This document shows, in pieces, positions 5,964 to 41,820 of a stretch of DNA of 51,148 nucleotides. Origin of the DNA: Deltaproteobacteria bacterium (GTDB taxonomy: Bacteria > Desulfobacterota > Syntrophia > Syntrophales > Smithellaceae); assembly GCA_025361065.1 (NCBI GenBank), contig JANYAY010000024.1, forward strand, positions 1-51,148, written 5' to 3'. The notes under the pieces are model-generated. The model made no database searches and was not told the DNA's origin. It saw only the letters and a list, made by a program, of their open reading frames with translations. How positions within the stretch are numbered: the stretch's first letter is position 1; every line of letters starts with the position of its first letter. A program made the translations under genes and the position numbers.

Positions 5964-6668
5964 TCAACCCTTTATGAACCTTACAAACACATCTTCCAGA
6001 GTATCACCATTCTTGACCAGGGAAGAAATGGTGTCTTTCACTAAAAGCTTTCCGCGATTGATGATTGCGGCGTTATCGCATATTTTTTCTACTTCCGACA
6101 GCAGGTGTGAATTAAGGAAGATAGTCATGCCTTGGTCTTTCAGTGATTCTAAAAGCTGGCGTATTTCCCTGATCCCGATAGGATCAAGGCCGGAAGTGGG
6201 TTCATCGAGAATTAGGAGTTGCGGATTACCGATGAGTACAGCGCCGATTCCGAACCGCTGAATCATGCCCTTGGAATAGGTGCTCACCTTCGTGTTTTCT
6301 CTCCCTTGCATGCCGATTTGCTCGACAATATGTCGGCATTGGTCGCGCGCATCGGCTTGGCTTATATCCAACAGTTCTGCACAGCGCTGCAGATACTGCC
6401 ACCCGGAAAGATAGGGAGGAATATGATAGTTTTCCGCCAGATAACCAACTGCGATGCGGCTTGCTAAATTTGTGCTGGGAAAACCATTTACCGACAGGCT
6501 TCCCGATGTCGGCCGGGTAAAGTCCAGCAGCATCTTAACGATTGTCGTCTTCCCTGCGCCATTGGGTCCAAGAAGAGCAAAATACTCACCTGCCTGGACG
6601 TGAAACGAGACATTGTCGACGGCGGCAAGTGTACCATATCTTTTGGTTGCGGTGTTCAATTCAATCAT
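5964..6668 (-). CDS. ABC transporter ATP-binding protein (ABC-2 partner)
   Basis: A 234-residue ATPase. Walker A is GPNGAGKT (about residues 35-42), Walker B is LLILDEPTSGLDP, and the switch His is in FLNSHLLSEVEKI. The signature loop reads YSKGMIQR instead of the usual LSGGQ; this variant is common in the NosF/CcmA-like group that pairs with ABC-2 permeases. It is the first gene of a two-gene operon with the downstream permease. The role is export or membrane-protein assembly; the substrate is unknown. The start is ATG followed by IELNTATKRYG, the usual N-terminus of this family. Confidence 0.9.
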   Translation of the reverse strand: MIELNTATKRYGTLAAVDNVSFHVQAGEYFALLGPNGAGKTTIVKMLLDFTRPTSGSLSVNGFPSTNLASRIAVGYLAENYHIPPYLSGWQYLQRCAELLDISQADARDQCRHIVEQIGMQGRENTKVSTYSKGMIQRFGIGAVLIGNPQLLILDEPTSGLDPIGIREIRQLLESLKDQGMTIFLNSHLLSEVEKICDNAAIINRGKLLVKDTISSLVKNGDTLEDVFVRFIKG

Positions 6669-7849: not shown

Positions 7850-8349
7850 TAAAACTCCTTTGAAATAACGGAAGAAACCCTTTATACACCTCTTCGACTG
7901 TCAGCAGATTGGATAATTATTTTGGTAAAAGTCACAAATATCTAATATCATTTAACAATGATGGTTTTCCGTGTGAATTGGGCACCCAAAAATTGGCATA
8001 AATGGAGTATTATATTCGTTATGCCATATTCGTTCTACACCTTGACATTATCAATAAGCAGCAGTACACTAAGCATGAAGAGATGCTGCAATGACCGGAT
8101 GATGTGAAAAAGTTACGCCATTTCAACAGGAGGTAATTAAAAGAGCGTCGTTGGTTGTTAGTGATAATGCTAAACTGCTAAAAGAGCAGTTATTTACAGA
8201 GTTGATTACAACTCATGGATAAAAAGCATTGCAGCTCTCTTCTTAATTGGCAGCATTAAAGGTTAGTATTCCCTTTTTAGTTAACAGGGAATGTAAAAAT
8301 AACAAGAAATTGAATAATCGAGATACTGTTATGCACGTATTGAGTCTGT
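7850..8349. other. 500-bp interval without a convincing gene
   Basis: AT-rich. A short open stretch on the plus strand (about 8110-8221) encodes LVVSDNAKLLKEQLFTELIT and follows a good Shine-Dalgarno-like AACAGGAGGTAATT, but has only a TTG as possible start and 23 codons. No other support for a gene. It could be the leader of the RNA candidate that follows. Confidence 0.3.
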
Positions 8350-35209: not shown

Positions 35210-36904
35210 CTATTTGACCGTCAACCCTGTAACCCGGTAATTAAACTCATAGCTCAGCGCCCCGCTCCAATCGTCATGGAAAACTCCTTTGTAGCGTGTT
35301 CCATAGACAGGCCCTACCGGTTTGCCGTATGTATAGAACCAATTAATGATCGGGCTGCCGGAAAAACCAAGAGCGATCCAGTAGGAACCGGGCATTAAAA
35401 CAGGGGAATCTTTCTTAAAATCAAAATTAACCCAGCGATAACCGGGCTTCAGGGACAGTTGATCCAGGTTGACCATATCACTTGTATAGAGAGGCGCACC
35501 GGGCTTACCCTGATCATCCTGAAAAATATCGACCCACAACCAGCCTTCGCCGCCGAATTTATGCAGTGCCAGGGCTGCTTTTTGCAGTTTCAAGGGTTTC
35601 TTTAAAACAACAACCTGCGCATATTGAGTTGCTTTTGTTGTTACATATTCCGCCGTCTCCACCAGAAAGTTGCGGGACATTTCATAGTTATTAGCACCGG
35701 ATTTTGTGGTCGCGCGGGGAAAGGCAAAATCAACATCTTCCGGGAAATCCAGGTTACCGTAAACAAAGGGCACCAAAAAACGCAGTAATTTTTTTTCGTT
35801 TTCCGGTATGACAACGGGTGGCGGCGGTGGGATCATGGCAATTTTCTTAAACTCCGCTTTTACGCCTGGTCCCAGCAGCAAATTCTTCGGGCCATAACTC
35901 TGACGGCTTCCTTTAAATTTAACAGAATCAGAAATAAAATTAGCATCAATTGTTTCCTGTAGTTTTGGTTTGATGCGCGCATCGGTTGTTTGTGACCAGC
36001 GTACTAAACCGTCATTTTTTGTTTCGTTATTATCCACACCAACTTCAATGCGGACAAACCGGTTGGAAACAAAAAGCTGCATATTTTGCGGATCGTAGGG
36101 CACCCAGCCTTTATCGGGGAACCATATCTCAATCCAGGAATGTCTGCCTTGACCCATTTTAAAAGTAAGCGTTCCCTTTTCCCAGGCGATATCAAAAGGC
36201 TGATTAAGTGTAACGCCATTGACTATACGTACCGGAACTCCGACTGAACGCAAAAGAGCCGCGGCAAGATGCGAATAATTCTGGCAATTTCCCTTGCCCG
36301 ATTCCAGAGAATAAACGGCATCATACTGTGACGGCGGGTTGACGTAGCGTACATTATCTACTACCCAGGAAACCACTCGCTGCACGGCATCAAATTGAGT
36401 TTTTACATCTCTTGTCAATTGCAGAGACAGTTTGCGAATTTCCGGATTATCCGACTGCACTTGCGCGGTAGCCTTTAAATAGTCGGCCATGTCGGAAGAA
36501 AGATCAGTCAGAGGAAAAGGTGCATCCGTTTCAATAAGTTTTAATCCGGTATGGTTTACGGCATCAAAAGAAATTATAGCATTAACCTTATCGGGAACGT
36601 TCGTCCAGGTTGCCAGAATTGTGCTGTTACCGCGCACATCCGTTGATGTTTTTCTATCCTGTGCTTCGGGAGAAAATGATATTTTCAAGTTGGATATCTG
36701 CTGGCTGTAAGTAGGGGATTCAAAACTCTGAGGGATAACAAAGCTCAAAGACAGTTTGCGCATGGCATCGCCGGCGGTGATCTGGTGCTGCAATTCATAA
36801 CGAATAGTCGAAGCCATGTCACCTTTAACAATAAAATTTTCGGCAAAGCAGGGAACTGCTAATGCCGCAATGGCTAAAAATATTAAACCTGAAATCTTTT
36901 TCAT
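35210..36904 (-). CDS. Secreted transglutaminase-like (papain-fold) domain protein
   Basis: 564 residues. A signal peptide (MKKISGLIFLAIAALAVPCFA) is followed by an N-terminal beta domain. The transglutaminase-like core is at about residues 165-275, with the catalytic triad Cys in LESGKGNCQNYSHLAAALLR, His in GQGRHSWIEIWF and Asp in WVPYDPQNM. A proline stretch (IPPPPPVVIP) separates it from a C-terminal beta domain (from about residue 370). The family includes peptidases and amidases acting on the cell wall or secreted proteins; the substrate is unknown. AGGGGA precedes the start. A 125-bp inverted-repeat element lies 29 bp upstream. Confidence 0.87.
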   Translation of the reverse strand: MKKISGLIFLAIAALAVPCFAENFIVKGDMASTIRYELQHQITAGDAMRKLSLSFVIPQSFESPTYSQQISNLKISFSPEAQDRKTSTDVRGNSTILATWTNVPDKVNAIISFDAVNHTGLKLIETDAPFPLTDLSSDMADYLKATAQVQSDNPEIRKLSLQLTRDVKTQFDAVQRVVSWVVDNVRYVNPPSQYDAVYSLESGKGNCQNYSHLAAALLRSVGVPVRIVNGVTLNQPFDIAWEKGTLTFKMGQGRHSWIEIWFPDKGWVPYDPQNMQLFVSNRFVRIEVGVDNNETKNDGLVRWSQTTDARIKPKLQETIDANFISDSVKFKGSRQSYGPKNLLLGPGVKAEFKKIAMIPPPPPVVIPENEKKLLRFLVPFVYGNLDFPEDVDFAFPRATTKSGANNYEMSRNFLVETAEYVTTKATQYAQVVVLKKPLKLQKAALALHKFGGEGWLWVDIFQDDQGKPGAPLYTSDMVNLDQLSLKPGYRWVNFDFKKDSPVLMPGSYWIALGFSGSPIINWFYTYGKPVGPVYGTRYKGVFHDDWSGALSYEFNYRVTGLTVK

Positions 36905-36932: not shown

Positions 36933-37057
36933 ATAACATTTCTAAATCAAAGATGATATCGCGGCGGCTAGAAGGAGGCGACGAGGCGTATTATACATAC
37001 GTTGAGGATGCCGACGACGACGCCAACAAAGATAGCGCTTTGATTTAGGAATGTTAT
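36933..37057. mobile_element. Small inverted-repeat (MITE-like) element, 125 bp
   Basis: Terminal arms ATAACATTTCTAAATCAAAG (36933-36952) and its inverse at 37038-37057 match at 19 of 20 positions. The core contains GGAGGCGACGAGGCGTATTA, then TACATACGTTGAGGATGCCG. No coding capacity. A decayed relative of the left part lies at 41855-41900. Confidence 0.75.
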
Positions 37058-37230
37058 TGAGCAATATAATCGAGAGAGGCTTATTATGTCAATTGAAACA
37101 AATCTAAAACGGGAACACACAATAATTATTTGATCTTTATATGAAATTAGCGTAAAAATGAATTGCGAATAAATAATGCACTTACGTGCGCAAAGATGCC
37201 GAAATATCCGGAAAGTTACACTAGAAAAAT

Positions 37231-37494
37231 ATGGATATTCAAATAGATCATCACACCTTGGAAAGAGCTGAAGAGCGCGGCACTGATGAAGCTGAGATTA
37301 GGGATGTAATTAAGGCAGGTTTCTCCATACCGGCGAAATACGGACGTAGCGGGAAAGCTAAGGTTTACGATTTCAAGCAAAACCGGCATAATAAGTATTA
37401 TGACCAAAAGCGGGTTGAGGTTTTCTATCTGATAGAAGCAGATAAGATTATTACTGTAACAGTCTATGTTTTTTATGGAAAATGGGAGGCATAA
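37231..37494 (+). CDS. DUF4258 family protein (possible RelE-like toxin)
   Basis: 87 residues, starting DIQIDHHTLERAEERGTDEA, the typical DUF4258 opening (His-x-x-x-Arg-x-x-x-Arg-Gly). EVFYLIEADKIITVTVYVFY near the end gives the last beta strands. The family is small, RelE-like in size, and commonly paired with DUF2283. The next gene, DUF2283, starts directly after its TAA. A toxin-antitoxin role is inferred from size and pairing only. No clear ribosome-binding site upstream. It lies between the 125-bp inverted-repeat element and the AT-rich islet. Confidence 0.82.
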   Translation: MDIQIDHHTLERAEERGTDEAEIRDVIKAGFSIPAKYGRSGKAKVYDFKQNRHNKYYDQKRVEVFYLIEADKIITVTVYVFYGKWEA

Positions 37495-37707
37495 ATGAAT
37501 ATTGCTTATAACGATAAAACTGACCTTCTTTACATCAGGCTTGATGACAGCAAGCAGGCCATTATTAATAAGAGGGTAGCGGAAGATATTGTTCTTGATG
37601 TTGGCGAGAACGACAAAATCATAGGAATAGAAATCATGGATGCTTCAAGGCATGTGTCACTGGACAAGATTTTGCCTGTTAAATATGCAGTCGCCAAAGC
37701 TTCTTAA
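37495..37707 (+). CDS. DUF2283 family protein (possible antitoxin)
   Basis: 70 residues: NIAYNDKTDLLYIRLDDSKQ, then VAEDIVLDVGENDKIIGIEI and MDASRHV. This is the complete DUF2283 pattern (Y-D...D-x-LYI, D..G...GIEI..AS). The start codon directly follows the stop of the DUF4258 gene, so both are translated together. It is likely the antitoxin-like partner; DNA binding or autoregulation cannot be seen. Confidence 0.85.
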   Translation: MNIAYNDKTDLLYIRLDDSKQAIINKRVAEDIVLDVGENDKIIGIEIMDASRHVSLDKILPVKYAVAKAS

Positions 37708-37943
37708 TAGCACCGCAGGCGGTGGCTCTCTGCCTATGAAAGAAAACGACTGTTATAGTTACCATGAAAAATAAAGTATAGAGGGCGGAACAATTGCCTG
37801 GCCCAATGGCGCTTATATTGGCCCGGTCTCCTTTATGAAAAGTCTTTTCGAATTAAATGTTGCTATCCCCGGAATAAACAGATGACATCGGATACCATAA
37901 GGTGTGTGAATTATTTTGTTAAATTAACAAGGATTAAAACCTC

Positions 37944-38789
37944 ATGCGTAATCTGAAATCATTATATCATTACACATCACAAAAAGGTCTTCTTGGTATT
38001 ATCAATGATAATAATCTATGGATGACTAATATATTTTATCTGAATGATAGTGAAGAATTTACACACACAACAAAATTGATCATCTCAATAGTGAAGAATC
38101 ATAATAAAGAAATAACTGGTAAGATAGAAGCAGGAACATCTACACAACGTGAATCTGATTTACTCCGAAAATTTAGAGAAATTGAGAGGGTGTTGAACGA
38201 TTTTATAAGTGAGGGATTGTCTGAAAGTTATGTGTTTTCACTTTCAAATGATGGTGATACTCTAAATCAATGGAGAGGATATTGTCCTGAGGAAGGTGGA
38301 TTCAGTATCGGGTTTGATTATAATAAATTGTCGTCTATAATAGATACTTTGAATAATAACGGGAATAGTGAAAGGTATGAAATAAAAAGATGTTTATATG
38401 AAGAAGAGGAACAACTGAAAAAATTGGAATCATTAGTTGATAGGATAGATGATGATTTATTTTATAAAAAAGAATTTTATAAACAATTAGTCACCTATTC
38501 TTCATATTTCAAACATGAATCATTCATAAAAGAAAATGAATATCGTATTATATATCATGGAGAACCTCCTAATCTTGAAAAACGATATACTGAAGGAAGG
38601 TCAATGATAATACCATATGTAAATTTGCTGCCTCCCGAGAATAAAGATATTATATTACCCCTAAGTGATGTTTTTGTAGGACCAACACCGCATAATGTAT
38701 TATCAAAGTTATCTATCATAAGTCTCTTAGACTCTAAAGGATATGACATAGATGTCAAGCCTTCAGAAATTCCATATAGGTCATGGTAA
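37944..38789 (+). CDS. DUF2971 domain protein
   Basis: 281 residues, AT-rich compared with the flanking genes. Starts LYHYTSQKGLLGIINDNNLW and has FYLNDSEEF, SLSNDGDTLNQWRGYCPEEG and GFSIGFDYNKL, all DUF2971 hallmarks. A later KENEYRIIYHGE carries another conserved part. The HYT/NDSEE arrangement recalls ADP-ribosyltransferase-like proteins, but the activity is unproven. Family members are frequent in variable, defence-rich DNA, which fits this islet. AAGGA lies 10 bp before the start. The next gene follows after 30 bp. Confidence 0.83.
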   Translation: MRNLKSLYHYTSQKGLLGIINDNNLWMTNIFYLNDSEEFTHTTKLIISIVKNHNKEITGKIEAGTSTQRESDLLRKFREIERVLNDFISEGLSESYVFSLSNDGDTLNQWRGYCPEEGGFSIGFDYNKLSSIIDTLNNNGNSERYEIKRCLYEEEEQLKKLESLVDRIDDDLFYKKEFYKQLVTYSSYFKHESFIKENEYRIIYHGEPPNLEKRYTEGRSMIIPYVNLLPPENKDIILPLSDVFVGPTPHNVLSKLSIISLLDSKGYDIDVKPSEIPYRSW

Positions 38790-38819
38790 ATAAATGAACT
38801 ATTTATATCATGAGGACTT

Positions 38820-40016
38820 ATGAAAAATAAATTCCAATTATTGCTCATACTACTGGTGATTAACGTTCTTTCATTTCCGTCTTTATGTTTTTCTGAAATG
38901 AAAACCGCTACAGGTGAATACTGTAAAATCTATCTAGGAGATATGGAAGACAAATATGTTTTAAATCACTTCAGAAATATTGTAAGAGATAGATCAATAG
39001 AAGATGGTCTGAGGAAATTAGATAAAAATAATCATGAATTTCAATCTTCCATAAGTAAAATTGCAAGCAGCCGTCATTGTATAAGATACATTAGTAATCA
39101 ATACTTGAATAAAGTAGTTGTAGTTAGTCATACAGAAAAAAATAGAAAAATATGTGATAAAGTAAAAATAACTGTAGATACCGAAATAATATATGAATTC
39201 ATAAAAATGGATGGGTGTCCTCCTTTAGTTGAAGCTCCTGATGCAAAAGGCGAAGAATGGGTTGAAGATATTTACTCACGTCTTGAATTGAAGGGTGATG
39301 TTATTAATATAGGTCTAATAATAGACACCAAAATCCCCGACATAGAAGGAAATAAAAAAGAACTGTTAGAGAACGAAGAGGAAAAACAATTGTTTTTCGT
39401 GATGTCAGAAATTAAGAAGGACAAATACAAAGTAGTTGATAGAAGGCATTTGAGTAAGATTATAGATGAACAAAAACTTTCATCATCTGGTCTTACAGAC
39501 AGCGATTCAGTCAAATTAGGTAAACTCCTCAATTTAGATATTATTGTTCTCAGACTAATTTATGAAAATAGTCAAGTAACGAAAGTGTTGAAAGTGGATA
39601 CTGGAGAAGTATTGTTATTCAAGACTTATGAGTTGGAGAAGAAAACAAAAAAAGAAGAATGGGTTCCTATAGTACGAACACATTATCGGGATACATATTA
39701 CTATAATAGTTCTATAACAAATGTAAGGCCAAATGTTGTCAAGGTATGGGTTATGGTAGAGTATTCAAAAATCGGGAAAGATGAATATATTAAAGAAAGA
39801 AAAAAAGATAATCTTTCAGTAAACGGTTATGAAATGTTAGTTCACCAAAAATATCTTTCCGAATATGATTGTGTCAATAAGACTGTAAAAACGGTAAAAT
39901 CTGTTGATTATGATAATAAAGGATATAAATTAGAGGATCAAGACTATTCATATATAAATCAAATAATCCCTGGGACAGTTGCAGATTCAGTCCTAAAAAA
40001 CGTCTGTCCAAAGTAG
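38820..40016 (+). CDS. Secreted CsgG-like protein with a C-terminal adhesin-E-like domain
   Basis: 398 residues, AT-rich. A signal peptide (KFQLLLILLVINVLSFPSLC) is followed by an N-terminal domain rich in charged residues. A CsgG/FlgO-like segment at about 160-270 reads KDKYKVVDRRHLSKIIDEQK then LSSSGLTDSDSVKLGKLLNL, the pattern in which such proteins compute lipoprotein-pore or flagellar-associated folds. A C-terminal part of about 100 residues starts VVKVWVMVEYSKIGKDEYIK and continues HQKYLSEYDCVNKTVKTVKS, ending IIPGTVADSVLKNVC, like the surface-adhesin protein E family with its paired Cys. The combination is unusual. GAGGA precedes the start. Function is inferred as an envelope protein only. 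Confidence 0.7.
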   Translation: MKNKFQLLLILLVINVLSFPSLCFSEMKTATGEYCKIYLGDMEDKYVLNHFRNIVRDRSIEDGLRKLDKNNHEFQSSISKIASSRHCIRYISNQYLNKVVVVSHTEKNRKICDKVKITVDTEIIYEFIKMDGCPPLVEAPDAKGEEWVEDIYSRLELKGDVINIGLIIDTKIPDIEGNKKELLENEEEKQLFFVMSEIKKDKYKVVDRRHLSKIIDEQKLSSSGLTDSDSVKLGKLLNLDIIVLRLIYENSQVTKVLKVDTGEVLLFKTYELEKKTKKEEWVPIVRTHYRDTYYYNSSITNVRPNVVKVWVMVEYSKIGKDEYIKERKKDNLSVNGYEMLVHQKYLSEYDCVNKTVKTVKSVDYDNKGYKLEDQDYSYINQIIPGTVADSVLKNVCPK

Positions 40017-40136
40017 TTTGTTACACATCGTTCAGATTATGATGTGAGAATAACATATGAGAAATTCAAACTTTCATTCATCTGGAAAAGAATAGTTTGA
40101 ATATTTTTGTTCGGACTTAAAGAGGATATAGAAATA

Positions 40137-40307
40137 ATGGATCCTATAAGGACTGGAGATAGTGTTATCTTATGGGTTGGAATGATTATAATAATAGTAT
40201 GTATCATGATGTCTATATGGTTTATAATAAAAAGTTTCTCATGGGGCGTATTACCTATGATTATTATTGGTATCTCTACATGTTTTTGGATGAAGTCTAG
40301 ATATTAA
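40137..40307 (+). CDS. Small membrane protein
   Basis: 56 residues from the ATG at 40137 (MDPIRTGDSVILWVGM); the frame is open 10 codons further to a TTG. Two membrane segments (VILWVGMIIIIVCIMMSIWF and SWGVLPMIIIGISTCFW) with a short loop. AGAGGA lies about 10 bp upstream. AT-rich as the two genes before it. No family recognised. Confidence 0.5.
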   Translation: MDPIRTGDSVILWVGMIIIIVCIMMSIWFIIKSFSWGVLPMIIIGISTCFWMKSRY

Positions 40308-40395
40308 AGCTTTATTTCGTTTCCGTCAATGATGCCAGAGTTATCAAGCAAATATAAAGATAATCAGCTTGTTACAGCTTTCCTGAAAAATATAA

Positions 40396-40424
40396 TTGAC
40401 AATATTTTGATTATGGATAAGTTA
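40396..40424 (+). promoter_or_regulatory. Possible promoter of the HesB-like selenoprotein gene
   Basis: A perfect TTGACA (40396-40401) with a weak -10 region (GATAAGTTA) at about 16-17 bp, some 50 bp before the start. Confidence 0.4.
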
Positions 40425-40472
40425 TCACCAAGATAGATGGGAAATAACCCATCAGAGAAAGGGGATAAATTA

Positions 40473-40790
40473 ATGTTTACAGTTACAGATAAGGCATCCG
40501 AAGTAATCAAGGATTTTCTCAAAGACAAAAAAGAAAATTCCGCGATTCGGATTACAATGTCAATTGGTTGATCCGGGCCCTCTTTGGGTATGGCTCTGGA
40601 TGAGCCTAAAAATGAAGATGAAGTGTTCGATGAGAAAGGAACAAAATTTATTATTGATAAGGACCTTCTCAATCAAGCGCAACCGATTAGCGTCGATTTT
40701 ATTGAATCAGACCGCGGTTCGGGATTTAAATTAACTTCCGGTCTTGCGGAACCGGAAGGCGGTTGCGGATCGTCATGCGGAGGTTGCTGA
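40473..40790 (+). CDS. HesB/IscA-like protein with in-frame TGA: candidate selenoprotein
   Basis: 105 residues if the TGA at 40569-40571 (codon 33) is read as selenocysteine (U). It starts MFTVTDKASEVIKDFLKDKK after AAAGGGG. The critical part reads IRITMSIG-U-SGPSLGMALD, then FIIDKDLLNQAQPISVDFIE and a Cys-rich end, GGCGSSCGGC. The U falls on the first conserved Cys of IscA (Cys35 in E. coli, TSGCSGMAY), a metal or Fe-S ligand. The two C-terminal cysteines of the family are present. Both sides of the TGA keep the same frame and clear family similarity. HesB-like selenoproteins are known from selenoproteome surveys. Requires SelA/SelB/SelC elsewhere. Alternative: a nonsense-mutated pseudogene, less likely given the clean frame and hairpin. 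Confidence 0.85.
40569..40600 (+). promoter_or_regulatory. Possible bacterial SECIS hairpin
   Basis: Directly after the TGA, CCGGGCC (40573-40579) can pair with GGCTCTGG (40592-40599) with two G-T pairs and one bulged C. The 12-nt loop CTCTTTGGGTAT contains a G-G-G-T, as expected for SelB recognition. Position and size fit a bacterial SECIS; the loop is a little closer to the TGA than in E. coli fdhF. Confidence 0.55.
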
Positions 40791-40797
40791 AACTTCG

Positions 40798-40826
40798 GGG
40801 GGAGATTCTTTCTCCCCCTTATTTTT
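40798..40826 (+). terminator. Intrinsic terminator of the selenoprotein gene
   Basis: GGGGGAGA pairs perfectly with TCTCCCCC around TTCTT, followed by TTATTTTT, 8 bp after the stop. Confidence 0.9.
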
Positions 40827-40902: not shown

Positions 40903-41820
40903 ATGAAAAAACTGGATAATGCAGATCAGCTTCTGCAGCAGGGGAAATATTTGGAAGCCATTGTGCTTTTAGAAGAAATTCATTGTGCTAATCCTGAAGA
41001 AGAATCAGTTTTGTTGATGCTGGCCTGGGCGCATCACGACAGCGGCGCCACAGCGAAAGCTGTTGCCTATCTGGAAACCCTGCTCCAGCGGGAACTGCAA
41101 AGAAAAATATTCACCGGATTTGCTTTTGATGAACTTGTCCGCATTTATAAACAGGAGAAAAATTTCCGCAAACTTACGGAAATCTGCACAAGCGCCGTGG
41201 CTGCGCAACCTGAAGATACAGGCCTGCTTATCGAACTCGGAAATGCCTATCTCCTGGCCGGTCAGGCCCGGGCTGCCTGCGGCATTTTTGAAAAATTAGT
41301 TCATCTGGAAAACGATAATCCTGCTTCTTATTGTCGCTTCGGCGAGGCTTTGTTTGCCGCCGGCATGACCGCAGAGAGCGAAGCTGCGTATTTGCGTGCC
41401 GGAGAAATTGATCCGGATCAGGTTGACCATTATTATTTTAAAATAGCTGATTTATTCGCCGAAAGCGGTTGTTATGAAGAAGCAAAAAGATTGCTGGAAG
41501 CGTGTATTGCCGCAAATCCGGCTAAAGCAGTGTATCATTGTTGTTTGGGCGATGTCCTGATCGGTTTGGGCCGGGTTTTCGAAGCGCAGGCGCAATACGA
41601 AACCGCTATCCATTATGACAACTCCAGTGCCGGTGCATACTACAACCGTTTAGGCAATATGCTGGCCCGGAGAAATTACCATTCCGAAGCTGTGGAAGCC
41701 TTCAGAAGAGCATTAAAAATAGAACCGGACAATTCTGTTTATTTACGGCATCTTGCTCTTTCCTATAAAGCCCTGGGATTGATGGATATAACAAAGGACT
41801 TAAGTGAAAATATCCAATAA
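40903..41820 (+). CDS. TPR-repeat protein
   Basis: 305 residues from the ATG at 40903; the frame is open further upstream, across the terminator of the preceding gene, which is not credible. No signal peptide. The protein is built from TPR units: ADQLLQQGKYLEAIVLLEEI, LLIELGNAYLLAGQARAACG, YYFKIADLFAESGCYEEAKR, YHCCLGDVLIGLGRVFEAQA and AYYNRLGNMLARRNYHSEAV then EAFRRALKIEPDN. It is a probable cytoplasmic scaffold for protein assembly. It follows the selenoprotein gene but is separated from it by a strong terminator. Weak ribosome-binding site. Confidence 0.85.
   Translation: MKKLDNADQLLQQGKYLEAIVLLEEIHCANPEEESVLLMLAWAHHDSGATAKAVAYLETLLQRELQRKIFTGFAFDELVRIYKQEKNFRKLTEICTSAVAAQPEDTGLLIELGNAYLLAGQARAACGIFEKLVHLENDNPASYCRFGEALFAAGMTAESEAAYLRAGEIDPDQVDHYYFKIADLFAESGCYEEAKRLLEACIAANPAKAVYHCCLGDVLIGLGRVFEAQAQYETAIHYDNSSAGAYYNRLGNMLARRNYHSEAVEAFRRALKIEPDNSVYLRHLALSYKALGLMDITKDLSENIQ

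Follow-up and report, generated by a model that had tools for sequence, protein, structure and literature searches.

Within the 51,148-nucleotide stretch of DNA analysed here (the window) lies what we read as an intact gene for a HesB-like, that is, A-type-carrier-like, selenoprotein, in which selenocysteine (Sec) would be inserted at an internal UGA by means of a SECIS element and Sec33 would form a probable Fe-S/metal or redox site. From the comparisons given below we put the probability of this reading at roughly 0.93. The locus itself (Table 1) is a real, intact iron-sulfur-assembly-like gene; its internal UGA almost certainly encodes Sec, judging by the conservation of the codon and of the hairpin that follows it.

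Table 1. Positions in the window of the hesB-like gene, its signals and its neighbours
Feature	Position	Strand	Basis
Transglutaminase-like gene, upstream	35210-36904		
Shine-Dalgarno-like AGAAAGGGG, 8 nt 5′ of the ATG	40456..40464	+	read from sequence
HesB/IscA-like selenoprotein gene (predicted), 105 residues, Sec at 33	40473..40790	+	profile matches, homologue alignment, selection
In-frame TGA, predicted Sec33, motif USGP	40569..40571	+	translation, alignment to homologues and IscA
Bacterial SECIS-type hairpin GGCUC-UGGAU-GAGCC, apical loop 40597-40601	40592..40606	+	conservation, compensatory changes
Terminal stop TGA of the hesB-like gene	40788-40790	+	translation
Terminator-like stem with T-rich tail	40797..40819	+	sequence
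TPR-repeat protein gene, conserved downstream neighbour	40903..41820	+	comparison of related loci

Reading frame and family assignment

Translation bore out the claim of the first-pass annotation that the gene is one frame with a single internal TGA: the product begins with MFTVTDKASEVIKDFLKDKKENSAIRITMSIGUSGPSLGMALDEPKNEDEVFDEKGTKF, carries the UxGP motif of HesB-like selenoproteins as USGP at residues 33–36 and ends with GGCGSSCGGC before the stop. It had also been predicted that gene callers would report only the C-terminal 68 codons or less, and the mechanical list of open reading frames indeed gives only a 68-codon piece (40584-40790); standard annotation misses or shortens the gene. The good ribosome-binding site ascribed to the gene is the Shine-Dalgarno-like sequence of Table 1, and in most relatives the region upstream of the ATG likewise has an A/G-rich GGGG/GGAG site. 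The terminator claimed 3′ of the gene was found as a terminator-like stem with a T-rich tail.

Family similarity on either side of the TGA was recovered by profile searches. The NCBIfam model NF038090 ‘IscA_HesB_Se’ matched residues 1–100 with 117.5 bits (cut-off 85) when Cys was put at the U position, and PF01521 (Fe-S_biosyn) matched residues 2–99 with 38 bits (gathering cut-off 26.3). The score with TIGR01911 (HesB_rel_seleno) was 54.3 bits, below the curated cut-off of 66.35, and all equivalog models stayed below theirs (IscA, 53.4 of 150.6; SufA, 46.1 of 136.2; ErpA, 39.6 of 117), which is why the protein was filed under NF038090 alone. In the host genome, a fragmented draft of 186 contigs and 3.95 Mb that is 97% complete, the gene is the only clear match to the Fe-S_biosyn superfamily (one more, weak match has an E-value of 0.22); an IscU/NifU-type scaffold and one SufB/D-type protein are encoded in the same genome. 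A PF01521 search over 155 genomes missed the window's own gene and was left unused for superfamily counts per genome.

Conservation of the in-frame TGA

The NF038090-type family occurs in 127 of the 155 genomes searched in the order, mostly in the Sec form; the order as a whole seems to depend on it. The earlier statement that HesB-like selenoproteins exist in anaerobic bacteria therefore stands, while its ‘a few’ was too low. Among the 150 homologues listed from the 155 genomes, with rows counted by eye, a single TGA is found in 130, two in one and no TGA in 19; TAA or TAG occurs in none. All 14 public-genome loci that span the site carry TGA. In the alignment, TGA occupies the same column in 55/55 distinct Sec-type sequences, and 12 Cys-type homologues use TGC or TGT there; TAA or TAG at this position, named by the first-pass annotation as the mark of a dead gene, was seen neither among the 150 listed matches nor in these aligned sequences. 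The tetrapeptide U(S/A/G)GP is near-invariant (USGP, UAGP or UGGP in 53 of the 55 Sec-type sequences). A distant homologue from Bipolaricaulota has Cys residues at the Sec position.

Two departures from the usual arrangement were seen among the relatives. In genus g22, paralogues (L075, L076, L077, L079 and L083) have Trp, Arg or Ser in place of Sec, the ligand residue being lost in extra copies. At another locus (L078; G007 C193:10560-11294) there is a tandem hesB-like pair, of which one copy has two in-frame TGA codons as reported and the other has Cys.

A SECIS-type hairpin downstream of the UGA

The hairpin that had been noticed 3′ of the TGA was found again, with a correction: the relevant stem is that of Table 1, and its UGGAU loop contains GG. 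Counting from the T of the TGA as 1, its pairs are 24-38, 25-37, 26-36, 27-35 and 28-34. Standard pairs occupy 274 of 275 stem cells, and all five pairs are formed in 54 of the 55 distinct TGA-type sequences; these sequences are related and the counts are not independent events, yet paired changes occur at two pairs and in several genera. A null in which codons were replaced at the gene's own usage and amino acids were kept (1000 trials) gave 188±5 paired cells (maximum 203), with all five pairs in 3.5 of 55 sequences (maximum 10). Sliding the partner arm by 1–3 bases left only 31–133 paired cells.

Compensatory changes were observed at pair 25-37, which is seen as GC, GU, UG, AU and UA, and at pair 26-36, seen as CG, UG and UA. 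Replacement of Ala by Ser, Thr or Val at codon 9 is accompanied by a matching change in the opposite arm. Codons within the hairpin are otherwise frozen: Ala9 is GCT in 100% (background 16%), Leu10 is CTG in 100% (27%) and Glu12 is GAG in 95% (34%). The apical loop reads UGGAU/C, with G, in 55/55 Sec-type sequences, and the whole five-pair stem is kept in only 5 of the 12 Cys-type homologues.

A search of 39.9–41.4 kb of the window against Rfam matched no RNA family, so the SECIS element was judged by its conservation. Single-sequence folding was only mildly better than that of shuffled sequences (z from –1.4 to –2.1), another reason why the case for the hairpin is built on conservation. In a longer stretch, single-sequence folding preferred a different fold, which was set aside as covariation supports the five-pair hairpin.

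Taken with the gene layout, these observations suggest the following course of translation. The ribosome would start at the ATG and, on reaching the UGA, would be met by a complex of SelB, GTP and Sec-tRNA anchored by the hairpin, which would insert Sec; translation would then run on to the terminal TGA. The decoding step at the hesB-like UGA is strongly supported by the comparative data, and the actual insertion of Sec is presumed from them.

Position of the predicted selenocysteine and possible function

The mature protein probably adopts the IscA fold. In the alignment with E. coli IscA (PDB chains 1r94 and 1s98), U33 occupies the column of the first ligand Cys, in agreement with the earlier proposal that the TGA stands at the first metal-ligand Cys position. 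The accompanying claim that both C-terminal cysteines are retained held for one of them: C98 lies on IscA C101, but Gly96 lies on IscA C99, and further cysteines follow at 102 and 105. The tail is thus CxxxCxxC, compared with CxxxCxC or CxxCxC in other family members and CxC in IscA. The pattern of three ligand cysteines, C(x)n CxC, by which A-type carriers are recognised is accordingly absent here, Sec standing first and only one tail Cys falling on the CxC of IscA.

Sec33 probably serves, together with the tail cysteines 98, 102 and 105, to bind or pass on an Fe-S cluster or a metal, or else for redox chemistry at the site. A carrier function for Fe-S clusters or metal, with U33 as a ligand, is what we presume from the fold and the alignment. 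It is conceivable, if somewhat doubtful, that the protein is instead a redox selenoprotein or handles heavy metals or selenium. Most selenoproteins are redox enzymes (PMC13188914), the tail is of CxxxCxxC-like rather than CxC type, and the g22 paralogues, with Trp, Arg or Ser replacing Sec, show that the scaffold can do without a ligand at this position. The IscA-type fold with its conserved ligand position, and the status of the gene as the sole clear member of its superfamily in the genome, argue against such a role. Sec forms, Cys forms and ligand-less paralogues together make up a deep natural alignment in which selenium as an Fe-S or metal ligand can be set against selenium in redox catalysis.

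Decoding machinery and a second UCA tRNA

The genome was checked for selA, selB, selC and selD, as the first-pass annotation had proposed, and all four are present; the lack of selA/B/C that it had named as a refuting result did not occur. Profile searches gave 608 bits for SelA, 364 bits for a full-length SelB and 379 bits for SelD; the tRNA-Sec is canonical (70.9 bits, anticodon TCA, G73, encoded CCA). SelD (L035:1501-2424, + strand) has an in-frame TGA of its own (HGAGUACK; U11 of the matched stretch) and is itself predicted to be a selenoprotein. A second SelB-like match on contig C103 (191 bits, with stops) proved to be EF-Tu, the ORF being intact and the match overrunning the stop codon. 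SelB matches at E 1e-40 were found in 151 of the 155 genomes of the order, and in 142 they were above the SelB cut-off; SelB presence does not separate Sec from Cys genomes, because nearly all match at a threshold that EF-Tu also passes.

The same genome encodes a second tRNA-Sec-like gene (G000 C127:12460-12553; L010:1500-1594, – strand) with anticodon UCA, U73, no encoded CCA and the acceptor stem GACCGG, which scores 52.7 bits as tRNA-Sec, over the gathering score. Most extra tRNA-Sec-like matches fetched from the same family are similar (GACCGG...CCGGUCU, TCA, U73, no encoded CCA), with recurrences at L144-L153, L159 and L160. In another family of the order, two loci (L157 and L158) have related tRNAs with a long variable arm and the GCA (Cys) anticodon. 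Vargas-Rodriguez and colleagues reportedly found in 2018 that a non-canonical tRNA-Cys together with SelB can recode a Sec-UGA with Cys (cited in PMC8762117), and the second UCA/U73 tRNA presumably belongs to that class or is a relative of it.

Given a second UCA tRNA with U73, a Sec/Cys mixture at the hesB-like UGA is possible. The UGA would then be read, still in a SelB- and SECIS-dependent way, as Cys or as a mixture in which Sec would dominate with selenium and Cys without it. Such decoding is a live rival that concerns the identity of residue 33 and leaves SelB-dependent readthrough as it is. The UCA anticodon combined with a Cys-type discriminator, the above-threshold tRNA-Sec score, the recurrence of look-alikes in the family, the two GCA relatives elsewhere in the order and the use of Cys as the natural alternative at the site in Cys-type homologues all point in its direction. 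On the other side, the genome has canonical tRNA-Sec, SelA and SelD in intact form and can thus supply Sec, and the putative recoding tRNA might be charged with a different amino acid or act on different genes. We consider Cys decoding unlikely on balance. An extension of it, which we regard as speculative and improbable, is dual decoding, in which the canonical tRNA-Sec would supply Sec and the second, family-wide tRNA would supply Cys, such that selenium supply would set a selenolate or a thiolate ligand at the cluster or metal site of the cell's only clear A-type-carrier-like protein. The second UCA tRNA makes Sec-versus-Cys decoding testable at a defined site.

At L156 and L162, in genomes G143 (tRNA at C15:7918, SelB match at 8096) and G086 (tRNA at C430:6015, SelB match at 6193), an additional SelB-like gene is closely preceded by a different short tRNA-Sec-like gene (UCA, AGGGGCAA acceptor). 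The pair is a possible second Sec system.

Returning to Sec insertion in an intact gene, two readings deny recoding altogether. Were the TGA a nonsense mutation in a dead gene, a C-terminal piece or nothing would be made, as the output of standard callers (40584-40790 only) might suggest; but the same TGA recurs across many genera, the hairpin is conserved, and purifying selection acts on both sides of the codon (against the closest relative, L017, dN/dS is about 0.04 before the codon and 0.08 after it), all of which makes this exceedingly improbable. A sequencing or assembly error in a Cys codon, thinkable in a draft as fragmented as this one, is hardly credible when many independently assembled genomes share the TGA and the SECIS hairpin covaries. 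Homologue conservation and purifying selection therefore exclude both for practical purposes.

Relation to known systems

HesB-like selenoproteins were catalogued in 2006 by Zhang et al., with 11 members, Syntrophus aciditrophicus and Syntrophobacter fumaroxidans being named (PMC1794560), and a 2026 review describes them with the motif UxGP and cites TIGR01911 as their model (PMC13188914). The window gene shares with that family the UxGP motif with predicted Sec at the position of the first IscA ligand, a UGA with SECIS, and occurrence in anaerobic bacteria; nothing essential differs. It belongs to this already known family and is not new in kind, because an NCBIfam model exists and published selenoproteome lists include the family. 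What is documented here for the family is SECIS covariation, its genome-wide count in the order and its downstream TPR neighbour.

E. coli IscA, SufA and ErpA belong to the same superfamily, and the protein aligns to 1r94/1s98 and 2d2a over nearly the full length; it differs from them in having Sec for Cys at the first ligand and CxxxCxxC for CxC in the tail, and in scoring far below the equivalog cut-offs. The Methanococcus maripaludis protein MMJJ_08070, likened by its published description, is also HesB-like with Sec; it is archaeal and uses the archaeal Sec system. It was found by mutagenesis and 75Se labelling, is without known function, and its disruption left nitrogen fixation unimpaired (PMC11097638), so for the members found here, too, the carrier role is put forward as presumptive.

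Genomic neighbourhood

In almost every related locus compared, those from other families of the order among them, the TPR gene comes directly after the hesB-like gene, and its product is a possible functional partner of the HesB-like selenoprotein; in the window the terminator-like site separates the two genes. Upstream, the transglutaminase-like gene adjoins the hesB-like gene in several relatives (L019-L021). In the window the two are parted by an AT-rich stretch (~30% GC, roughly 37.5–40.4 kb, within 37000-40470) with a DUF4258/DUF2283 gene pair, a DUF2971 gene and an Adhesin_E/CsgG-like gene, which looks like an insertion.
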